DNA from: Paenibacillus sp. MAEPY2
GTDB lineage: Bacteria; Bacillota; Bacilli; Paenibacillales; Paenibacillaceae
Assembly (NCBI RefSeq): GCF_000499205.1
Contig: NZ_AWUK01000032.1
Coordinates: 124,001-188,000 of the forward strand
Length of the DNA: 64,000 nt
Reading direction: 5' to 3'
The notes under the pieces: model-generated
Databases searched by the model: none
Told to the model about the DNA's origin: nothing
The model's input: the letters and a program-made list of their open reading frames with translations, nothing else
Program-made: the position numbers and the translations under genes
Shown: positions 1 to 22,286 of the stretch, one piece after another
Layout: every line of letters begins with the position of its first letter
Position numbering within the stretch: position 1 is the first letter of the stretch

Positions 1-391
1 CTTCCTCACGCCCATATACATCGGATAAGAACAGCCGTACATACCGAGCCAGCAAATGCTCGAATTCGACCGTTTCCAGTACTTCACGGTAGGACTGCGG
101 AACATCATTAACGGGTATATCGACATCAAAATGAATATACGTAAGTACCAACGGTTTTTGCTTATTATGTGTAGCAGTAGGATGATCTCCTGGCCTGAAC
201 AGGAAACAGCTCCCCTTGCCCACTTCATATGGCTGATCGTTCAGCACCACGGTCCCCTCACCGCTCCACACGTAAAATAAGTCATAGTTTTGCATCGGTT
301 TTTCCCGCTTCTGCCACTTCCATCCCGGTTCGCAGACAATTTTGGCGACGGCGGGCAAAATAACAAAAGATGACGGCGATGCCTGCAGCAT
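1..391 (-). CDS. AraC-family regulator, N-terminal part (cut by window edge)
   Basis: The 130 visible codons encode a cupin-like ligand-binding domain of the AraC family. It has the typical WSGEGTVVLND and FRPGDHPT strands that precede an AraC DNA-binding domain. The C-terminal helix-turn-helix lies beyond position 1, so the family call rests on the sensor half only. The ATG is chosen because AAGGGGGAG lies 9 bases upstream. It follows the MocR gene in the same orientation, with a TATAAT-like -10 on this strand at 500-505. Such regulators usually control adjacent sugar genes, which are outside the window. Confidence 0.72.
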   Translation of the reverse strand, partial: MLQASPSSFVILPAVAKIVCEPGWKWQKREKPMQNYDLFYVWSGEGTVVLNDQPYEVGKGSCFLFRPGDHPTATHNKQKPLVLTYIHFDVDIPVNDVPQSYREVLETVEFEHLLARYVRLFLSDVYGREE

Positions 392-19796: not shown

Positions 19797-20468
19797 TCAG
19801 CTCTCCTGGCTGATCACTTCTTCCTCAAACCGATCAATGTCATCATTCATACCGATAATGACCATAATGTCACCCATCTGGAGCGAGTCTAGTGCAGTCG
19901 GGGCAATAATGACCCCGGCTTCCTTTTGCAAAGCTACAATGCTGCACCCAAAGCGCACTCGTGCATTTAGCGTGGACAGCGTTTTATTGTGCAGACAGGC
20001 TGGAACCTTCATCTCCACAATACTGTAATCATCGGACAATTCGATATAATCCAGCAGATTCGGCGTAACAAGCTGGTGGGCAACCCGGATTCCCATGTCA
20101 CGCTCTGGATAAACGACACGATCGATCCCCAGCTTGTCCAGTGCCCGTCCATGAAGAACCGAAATGGCTTTGGCCACAACTGTTTTCACACCGAGTTCCT
20201 TCAGTAAAATGGCAGTGAGAATACTGGTCTGGATATCCGCCCCGATGGCAACGATACAGCAGTCAAAATTGCGGATACCCAGGGAGCGCAGCACTTCCTC
20301 ATCCGTCGAATCCGCGACGACGGCATGGGTGACCAATTCACTCATGTCATCGACGACTTCTTCATTTTTATCGATACCCAGCACTTCATATCCAAGTTCC
20401 ATTAATTCCTGTGCCAGGCTGGAGCCAAAGCGCCCAAGCCCAATCACCGCAAACTGCTGTGTTTTCAT
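19797..20468 (-). CDS. Ktr potassium uptake regulatory subunit (KtrA/KtrC)
   Basis: A 223-residue cytosolic RCK gating protein: Rossmann RCK-N domain with GLGRFGSSLAQEL (10-22) and acidic D34 after the second strand, then an RCK-C domain (about 140-220) that binds c-di-AMP in characterised KtrA/KtrC. It lies 17 bases after the membrane subunit gene and forms the ring that gates it. The sequence alone does not tell KtrA from KtrC. Confidence 0.92.
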   Translation of the reverse strand: MKTQQFAVIGLGRFGSSLAQELMELGYEVLGIDKNEEVVDDMSELVTHAVVADSTDEEVLRSLGIRNFDCCIVAIGADIQTSILTAILLKELGVKTVVAKAISVLHGRALDKLGIDRVVYPERDMGIRVAHQLVTPNLLDYIELSDDYSIVEMKVPACLHNKTLSTLNARVRFGCSIVALQKEAGVIIAPTALDSLQMGDIMVIIGMNDDIDRFEEEVISQES

Positions 20469-20485: not shown

Positions 20486-21820
20486 TTATCCAATAATCAT
20501 TTTGCCTTCCGGATACCTGTACAATTCTTTACCCTTTTTCTGTCCAAGTGCATACGCGAGTGTAATCGGCCCAAGACGCCCTGCAAACATGGTGAAACAG
20601 ATCAAAATCTTGCCGATCGTGGTCAGCTTCAGCGTAAGTCCCATAGACAAACCGACCGTACTAAAAGCTGATGTCGTCTCAAATAAAATCGTCAGAAAAC
20701 TGCTGTCTTCCGTTGTACTAAGCACCATCGTAACCGCGATAATCAGCAACAGTGCGAGGAGCGTAATCGTCAATGCTTTGAAAATCCGTTCCTGTAAGAG
20801 CCGGTACCTGAAAAAGACGATATCTTCCCTCCCACGAATCATCGCGACAACAGCCCCGATCATAATCATAAAGGTGGTCGTTTTGATCCCGCCTCCTGTA
20901 GAACCTGGAGAAGCCCCGATAAACATTAATATAATGATGAAAAATTGCGTTGCCTGCCTCAGCCCGGCGATGTCTACCGTATTAGCACCAGCTGTTCGCG
21001 GCGTGATGGACTGGAAGAAAGAACCCAATATTTTGCCGCCCCAGTTCAGGCCACCTAATGTACGGGGATTGCTGAATTCAAACACAAAAATAACCAATGC
21101 ACCACATACGATTAACAATCCTGTCGTCAGCAGCACCACCTTGGAGTGCAGCGACAGCTTCTTCGTCCTCCGATATTCAACTAGATCAGACAGAACAACA
21201 AAACCAATGCCGCCGGAAACAATCAGGAACATAGCTGTAAAATTGACGAGCGGATCATACACATATCCGGTAAAGCTGCGGAATTCTCCAAACATGTCGA
21301 ACCCAGCATTGTTAAACATGGAGATGGCATGCCAATATCCATAATATATGGCCTGCCCTACCGGCATATCGAACGACCAGCGAATGGCAAACAGTGTGCC
21401 ACATATGCCTTCCAGTATGAGTGAGTAGACTACAACCTTGCGAATAAGGCGGACGATCCCTTCCATCGTGCTCTGGTTCATTGCCTCCTGTAGAATCAAG
21501 CGCTCACGCAGAGAGATGCGTCGTTTGAACGCAATCGCCACCAGTGTAGACATCGTCATAAAGCCGAGTCCGCCAATTTGAATCAGGATTGCAATCACGA
21601 CCTGACCTAGCGTCGAAAAGTGAGTTCCCGTGTCCACGACAACCAGCCCTGTTACACAGACTGCGGAAGTCGCGGTGAAGAGCGCATCAATAAAAGGAAG
21701 GCTGACCCCGCTTCGACTGGATGCCGGAAGCATCAGCAAAAGTGTCCCAAGCAATATAATACCTGCGAACCCGAGGACCAGAATTCGGGGTGGCGATAGC
21801 CGCATCCATTGAACATTCAT
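20486..21820 (-). CDS. Ktr potassium transporter membrane subunit (KtrB/KtrD)
   Basis: About 444 residues from the ATG at 21820, with four MPM repeats of the Trk/Ktr superfamily. Selectivity-filter glycines are visible in TSAVCVTGLV, FNNAGFD, ITPRTAGANT and TSAFSTVGLSM; GASPGSTGGGIKT precedes the third-repeat gate helix. The frame stays open to 21955, but the upstream part overlaps an intrinsic terminator and lacks a ribosome site. A GTG at 21826 with AGAGGTG upstream is an alternative start. Confidence 0.9.
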   Translation of the reverse strand: MNVQWMRLSPPRILVLGFAGIILLGTLLLMLPASSRSGVSLPFIDALFTATSAVCVTGLVVVDTGTHFSTLGQVVIAILIQIGGLGFMTMSTLVAIAFKRRISLRERLILQEAMNQSTMEGIVRLIRKVVVYSLILEGICGTLFAIRWSFDMPVGQAIYYGYWHAISMFNNAGFDMFGEFRSFTGYVYDPLVNFTAMFLIVSGGIGFVVLSDLVEYRRTKKLSLHSKVVLLTTGLLIVCGALVIFVFEFSNPRTLGGLNWGGKILGSFFQSITPRTAGANTVDIAGLRQATQFFIIILMFIGASPGSTGGGIKTTTFMIMIGAVVAMIRGREDIVFFRYRLLQERIFKALTITLLALLLIIAVTMVLSTTEDSSFLTILFETTSAFSTVGLSMGLTLKLTTIGKILICFTMFAGRLGPITLAYALGQKKGKELYRYPEGKMIIG

Positions 21821-21848
21821 TTTCACTTGAGTTTCATCCACCTCTGCC

Positions 21849-21878
21849 AAAAAGAAAATGACTCCACGACGTGGAGCC
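21849..21878 (-). terminator. Intrinsic terminator inside the ktr leader
   Basis: On the minus strand GGCTCCAC pairs with GTGGAGTC (one wobble) over GTC, followed by ATTTTCTTTTT. It lies upstream of the transporter start, so full-length ktr mRNA needs read-through. Upstream segments CTCCGAA (21946-21940) and TTCGGAG (21888-21882) can pair with each other, and GGAG can compete for the terminator arm, as in an attenuator. Confidence 0.6.
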
Positions 21879-22056
21879 TTTCTCCGAAGCGCTTTTCCAT
21901 AACGCTCTTCGTAATACCCAAGCACTTGGAAAGCTCCATTTCGGAGCGTAAACATGTATGCATTATCGTTGAATCACATAACATTAGGTTGGAATACATT
22001 CTATTCGTTCCCTTGTTAGCCTAAAGACATGCGGAATATTGGACATTTGATTCAAA

Positions 22057-22085
22057 ATTATAAGCGCTGCGGCGTTTGTATACAA
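22057..22085 (-). promoter_or_regulatory. SigA promoter of the ktr operon
   Basis: On the minus strand TTGTAT (22080-22085) and a perfect TATAAT (22057-22062) are 17 bases apart. Transcription from here gives a leader of about 230 bases before the membrane subunit gene. Confidence 0.65.
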
Positions 22086-22229
22086 AACGATTTTTGTGTA
22101 AATAGCATCGAATTCCGTCAAAAAGGGAAAAACTCAGATATGGCGACGGATAGATCAGATTGTTTCGATCATTTTCATTCGTTTTCATGCATTTGCACCG
22201 CTTCTCGTTTCACCATTGGCATTCGGGGC

Positions 22230-22257
22230 TTGGGCTGTGCTATCTTTACTTTAATAT
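22230..22257 (+). promoter_or_regulatory. Possible promoter of the CPBP protease gene
   Basis: TTGGGC (22230-22235) and TAATAT (22252-22257) with a 16-base spacer lie 30 bases before the start codon. It is a moderate match only. Confidence 0.35.
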
Positions 22258-22286
22258 CCATATTAATAAAGGAGGAACAATATTAA

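Follow-up and report, generated by a model that had tools for sequence, protein, structure and literature searches.

The 64-kb window, i.e., the whole stretch of DNA that was analysed, carries on its minus strand the two genes of a Ktr potassium transporter, ktrB (20486..21826) for the K+ transporter membrane subunit and ktrA (19797..20468) for the regulatory subunit. These assignments are based on domain matches, KtrB belonging to the TrkH family (Pfam; TIGR00933) and KtrA carrying TrkA_N and TrkA_C domains (Pfam). Translation of KtrB most likely starts either at GTG 21826 (446 aa) or at ATG 21820 (444 aa). The longest open reading frame (489 aa) places the start at ATG 21955, inside the leader, which adds about 45 residues encoded by 21826-21955, including the terminator. 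This start was rejected because the open frame of several relatives comprises 446 aa only, and the N-terminal extension is probably not real. The Shine-Dalgarno sequence AGAGGTGG (21838..21845, minus strand) was read from the sequence and its position checked.

Upstream of ktrB, a sigma-A-type promoter, TTGTAT-17-TATAAT (22057..22085, minus strand; − 35 at 22085-22080, − 10 at 22062-22057), was read from the sequence, as in the initial annotation. It is omitted by the promoter consensus scan, which needs 4/6 matches in the first hexamer, of which TTGTAT has 3. For comparison, the ktrB leader was matched in 48 of 75 genomes of the genus, referred to here as the clade, and one upstream sequence per matching genome was taken, giving 48 distinct sequences. 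A pattern search of these upstream sequences found TTGNNN-16..18-TATAAT in all 48, and the Shine-Dalgarno sequence followed by GTGA(A/G) was matched in 46. With transcription inferred to start near 22050, the leader extends over about 230 nt to the ktrB start at 21826/21820, the length that had been claimed for it. The distance from the − 10 element to codon 1 varies from 174 to 253 nt across the 48 leaders, and the fold of the whole present leader is not exceptional relative to shuffles (z = − 1.62). Further upstream, an inverted repeat, ACAAAA-N4-TTTTGT (22082-22097), overlaps the − 35 element and is a candidate operator. Much of the sequence, about 200 nt long, that separates the ktrB promoter from a divergent Rce1-like gene of the CAAX-protease type (22086-22285) is conserved in 35 aligned clade members, and also in G037 (L059), whose sequence beyond this stretch differs.

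The initial annotation described an attenuator-type leader with an intrinsic terminator before the transporter start, and both the terminator and the attenuator layout are supported. The terminator, GGAGAAA-GGCTCCAC-GTC-GTGGAGTC-ATTTTCTTTTT (21849..21885, minus strand), was identified by scanning, stem conservation and folding. Its stem occupies 21878-21860 and is followed by a U-rich tail to 21849, just before the ktrB Shine-Dalgarno sequence, so that a stable G+C hairpin with a U tract lies between promoter and start codon, the arrangement of an intrinsic-terminator attenuator. The hairpin has a folding energy of − 16.9 kcal/mol (z = − 2.76), and only 1 of 200 shuffles is as good. The number of terminator-like sites in 3.5 kb (4, vs. 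3.1 ± 1.6 in shuffles) is by itself no more than expected by chance, and the case for the terminator is therefore carried by conservation. The stem was found in all 48 leaders with a search pattern that already loosely required the inner five pairs. Among its 29 distinct versions, each of the seven pairs is formed in 28 or 29, and the outermost one is G-C, G-U or A-U depending on the version.

A pattern for this hairpin, AGGCTCC..GGAGTYATTTT, occurs in 32 of the 75 genus genomes (controls, 0). A regulon sharing the hairpin was considered and rejected, since the matches lie at ktrB or nth except for one other spot in G056 (L095). For the match in G073, the search for nth gave no match at the cut-off, but the start that follows resembles nth. 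The leader of nth, the gene for endonuclease III (L188-L217; L189, C13, in the present genome), contains a motif nearly identical to the ktrB terminator, GCTTCGAAGTAAGGCTCCAC..GTGG(A/G)GTCATTTT. This copy lies directly before the nth Shine-Dalgarno sequence, without a good U tract, and the stretch is absent in two clade members (G054, G006). The resemblance between the nth and ktrB motifs may have arisen from copying or from convergence.

The other conserved part of the leader is a 5′ block (22002..22033, minus strand), which consists of CGCATG (22033-22028), a variable spacer of 13 nt, and AAGGGAACGAATA (22014-22002). GCATG-N16-GGAACSAATA occurs in 46 of the 48 clade leaders (absent from L058 and L092), and AAGGGAACGAATA is exact in 46 as well (absent from L005 and L012).

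The initial annotation further claimed that mutually exclusive pairings in the leader form a switch. CTCCGAA (21940..21946, minus strand) can indeed pair with TTCGGAG (21882..21888, minus strand), which partly coincides with the foot of the terminator hairpin in its extended form. However, this pair is confined to a subclade (16 of the 48 leaders), among which no compensatory change was seen, and the terminator mostly wins. Twenty of the 48 leaders were folded up to the U tract, with the Shine-Dalgarno sequence left out. In transcripts ending before the 3′ arm, the terminator 5′ arm is held by upstream sequence with a mean probability of 0.07-0.95. Once the 3′ arm is present, the 5′ arm pairs with it at a mean probability of at least 0.89 in 18 of the 20 (0.98 in the present leader). 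The two exceptions are L012, with a terminator pairing of 0.52 and a rival pairing of 0.33, and L093, with no terminator pairing and a weak hairpin (− 5.5 kcal/mol), showing that the terminator does not dominate in every leader. No conserved antiterminator was found in the 20 folded leaders or by a pairing search in all 48. As a general switch, these pairings are not confirmed. The broader claim of a ligand-controlled switch fares no better, given the lack of a conserved antiterminator, the single conserved block at the 5′ end and the variable leader length. A ligand sensor of another kind, as the initial annotation also suggested, is possible.

In many relatives the gene is preceded by a c-di-AMP riboswitch (ydaO/yuaA leader, RF00379), whose leaders share with the present one the gene, ktrB, and the order of promoter, leader, intrinsic terminator and Shine-Dalgarno sequence. 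Of the 27 genus genomes that do not belong to the clade, at least 17 have RF00379 upstream of ktrB at a distance of no more than about 610 nt, 16 of them found by comparing the listed RF00379 and ktrB positions under strict filters and one (G008) by direct scan. Among the loci scanned directly, RF00379 is present in 10 of 14 non-clade genus loci vs. none of 6 clade loci. Of 22 loci from other genera (L158-L179), 15 were scanned, and 12 of these have RF00379 upstream of ktrB. The thought that c-di-AMP control would suit this lineage was therefore apt, and the presence of RF00379 upstream of ktrB in so many relatives is most simply explained if it is ancestral.

The Rfam search that the initial annotation had called for matched no known class at gathering level in the 64-kb window. 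The same holds for 40 further clade loci at gathering level, and six more gave nothing at E up to 1. For RF00379, with a gathering threshold of 38 bits (covariance-model score), there is no match in any of the 47 clade leaders scanned (the present leader, the six and the forty; G002 was left out). The annotation's remark that the ydaO consensus is missing is borne out, since the present leader region contains no RF00379 match even at E up to 5. Its sole match to any class up to that value, a weak one to ctRNA at E 2.9, was rejected as an identification. Both the aptamer core CAGCTAACC and the conserved 3′ core strand with CAGCUAACC are missing from all 48 clade upstream sequences, the latter being present in relatives. 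The terminator sequence also differs from that of RF00379 leaders. What the aptamer consensus and the present leader have in common is GGGAAC-AAUA: GGGAACGAAUA in the leader may be compared with the GGGAACC segment in the 5′ half of RF00379, although 1396 of 5000 shuffles are as good as the direct consensus match. Elsewhere, the present genome contains six RF00379 matches, none of them in the window, showing that the c-di-AMP signal is in use at other loci.

A link between the two kinds of leader is provided by shortened ktrB leaders, which were found in eight genus genomes (G009, G024, G031, G032, G039, G045, G048, G066). These leaders bear a terminator and gave no RF00379 match (the run that included L182 admitted E values up to 10 for four). 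They resemble the present leader in having a block of the type ACA(A/G)GGGAAC(C/G)AATA downstream of TATAAT, and ACAAGGGAACGAATA is common to the present leader and these shortened leaders. Five of the eight contain GAATYCTAAAGTGAAAACARGGGAACCAATACA, and the other three (L115, L180, L183) have the related AATCCTAAAAAG..AAAAACAGGGGGAACCATTACC. They differ in the terminator, which is of GGGAACC/GGUUCC type in the shortened leaders, whereas the present leader has a separate GCUCCAC/GUGGAG terminator. In the minimum-energy folds, GGGAACC lies in the terminator 5′ arm in 4 of the 5 shortened leaders folded, the exception being L185. Across the shortened leaders (L112, L114, L115, L180, L182-L185), the aptamer-derived GGGAACC thus seems to be used as a terminator arm, and these leaders may themselves constitute a small regulatory RNA element.

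The relationship among the three leader types was assessed by comparing consensus sequences with the promoter removed (48 leaders of the clade, 8 shortened leaders and 13 c-di-AMP leaders; 5000 shuffles). Pairwise alignment z-scores (29.7, 14.4 and 3.0) were set aside in favour of this test because the rows are related and the scores overstate significance; in the pairwise comparison, the largest shuffle maximum equals the best score between a clade leader and a shortened leader (33). The consensus of the shortened leaders matches that of the c-di-AMP leaders with a score of 33, which none of the 5000 shuffles reaches, and the best single pair of these two types shares a 32-nt stretch. The clade consensus matches that of the shortened leaders with a score of 25 (5 of 5000 shuffles as good). 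Compared directly with the c-di-AMP consensus, it scores 15, and the similarity is not significant. Descent of the present leader from the aptamer is therefore indirect, linked through the shortened leaders, and on these alignments the 5′ block is probably a remnant of the GGGAACC segment of the c-di-AMP aptamer.

A KtrB tree of 36 rows (8 of the 48 clade members, all 8 bearers of shortened leaders, 15 with RF00379 and 5 with neither) places the clade and the shortened-leader group each on one side of a branch, both at 100/100. Bearers of RF00379 occur on either side of the midpoint root as drawn. A single clade uniting the present and the shortened leaders is not rejected (p-AU 0.35), and one or two leader reductions are both possible. 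As for leaders of neither kind, those of G017 and G023 have no Rfam match and, by reading, are not shortened leaders. The ktrB upstream sequence of G143 (L161) likewise has no RF00379 match, and a terminator, GGCACTCTGGATTTCCAGTGCTTTTTTC, resembling that of riboswitch-bearing relatives remains. To judge by its sequence, L161 seems to have lost the sensor independently and to have retained the attenuator. It thus resembles the present leader in having a terminator before ktrB without a recognisable sensor, whereas its terminator is riboswitch-leader-like and the present one is different.

The near-invariance of the 5′ block invites several explanations. A dispersed regulon was rejected on the basis of the distribution of ACARGGGAACSAATA, which matches once in the present genome and 36 times in 36 of 295 family genomes. 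Of these matches, 29 come from the 44 genomes of the genus included in that sample, all at the ktrB leader by position comparison. The seven in other genera comprise five (L140-L144) lying inside a long open frame or at its end, none of these frames being taken for ktrB, and two in G136 and G145. A reversed control gave 20 matches in 19 genomes, placing the seven stray matches at chance level. ACARGGGAACSAATA was picked after both leader types had been seen, and its presence in the shortened leaders is not independent evidence.

One alternative, which we regard as doubtful, is that the block works as an aptamer of reduced size, recognising c-di-AMP or some new ligand, and decides whether the terminator forms. 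Its layout could comprise a possible hairpin AUGYG/CGCAU, followed by UCUUU..AAGGGA and then GGGAACGAAUA. The near-invariance of the block, its probable descent from an aptamer segment and the placement of the same GGGAACC in the terminator 5′ arm of shortened leaders are all consistent with such a sensor. However, 32 distinct blocks yield practically no consensus structure with RNAalifold (− 0.1 kcal/mol), the predicted fold of the present block does not surpass those of shuffles (z = + 1.1), and the middle of the leader is variable with a terminator that mostly prevails. A role of the block as partner in a downstream leader pairing was also tried and rejected, the pairing being no better than in shuffles (mean z = + 0.58). 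In a related proposal, evolution would have pared the c-di-AMP aptamer (about 130 nt) down to a block of about 30-60 nt that retains a sensing function, for c-di-AMP recognised differently or for some other signal related to K+, and governs a terminator gained more recently in front of ktrB; this we judge unlikely.

Proteins acting on DNA have also to be weighed. First, the block, or the ACAAAA-N4-TTTTGT repeat at the − 35 element, could be the operator of a DNA-binding regulator, with the terminator incidental. ACAAAA-N3..5-TTTTGT is found in 36 of the 48 clade upstream sequences, and conservation extends further upstream in the 35 aligned members; yet the repeat is absent in the remaining 12, and the candidate site has no assigned regulator, so that we consider an operator decidedly unlikely. 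Second, the block could be a second promoter inside the leader, of the sigma-F (forespore) type, written as GCATG-N16-GGAACGAATA. The two conserved half-sites with a spacer of variable sequence and fixed length in 46 of 48 leaders fit such a promoter, as does the sporulation gene spoIIR in this organism. The B. subtilis sigma-F consensus is GYATA-N14..16-GGnnAnAHTR, to which the block has two mismatches. The block is also unlike the presumed spoIIR promoter, GTTTA-N14-GGGCATACTGA, read by eye from 13 aligned relatives, although the strict sigma-F pattern found nothing in 20 spoIIR loci, which makes spoIIR a weak yardstick. Since, moreover, the shortened leaders have GGGAAC in common with the block but no GCATG at the corresponding distance, we hold a sigma-F promoter to be improbable.

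A short open reading frame starting in the block could, finally, be translated and tune the terminator through leader-peptide attenuation. The ATG of the present block does open such a frame, in register with AGG-GAA-CGA-ATA. However, only 34 of the 48 leaders have an ATG in frame, the position of the stop varies widely, and the variable columns are evenly spread over the codon positions (10, 10 and 8 of 15 each), revealing no coding signature and leaving this explanation highly improbable.

The interpretation that we prefer, and to which we assign about an even chance, is that the present leader is an aptamer-less descendant of a c-di-AMP ktr leader and acts as a leaky attenuator. The ancestral ktrB leader would have carried the c-di-AMP riboswitch, the sensing domain of which would have been lost in this clade, leaving the promoter, the short conserved 5′ block and the intrinsic terminator directly before the Shine-Dalgarno sequence. 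The terminator would serve as a default leaky attenuator, keeping ktrBA expression low through low read-through, and the extent of read-through would depend on how strong the promoter is and on the general conditions of elongation, with no dedicated ligand involved. Control by c-di-AMP would be left to the KtrA protein, acting through its C-terminal TrkA_C domain. Both levels of control are described for ktrAB of B. subtilis, where c-di-AMP is reported to block transcription through a riboswitch and to inhibit the transporter via the C-terminal RCK (RCK_C) domain of KtrA, which is reported to bind c-di-AMP (PMC5573677). The near-invariance of the 5′ block is the one observation that the default-attenuator interpretation leaves unaccounted for.

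Among other known systems, the Na+ riboswitch (DUF1646 motif), which occurs alone or in tandem with the c-di-AMP riboswitch, is described as a cation-homeostasis leader with an intrinsic terminator (PMC9337991) and is similar in this respect, whereas the present window contains no match to any Rfam family. Titles and abstract openings in the open-licence literature contain no report that we could find of this leader or of the loss of a c-di-AMP riboswitch at ktr genes, and the words "ktr" and "potassium" are absent from the main text of a Paenibacillus transcriptome paper (PMC5670726). What appears to be new here is a ktr attenuator apparently descended from a c-di-AMP riboswitch but without it, the parts themselves being of known kinds.

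From the sequence comparisons, the clade seems to have lost RNA-level sensing of c-di-AMP at ktrB while keeping the attenuator. A clade that seemingly lacks the RNA arm but retains an attenuator offers a natural experiment on the need for double control by c-di-AMP, and the series from the full aptamer through the shortened leader to the present leader would show how a riboswitch decays or is rewired.
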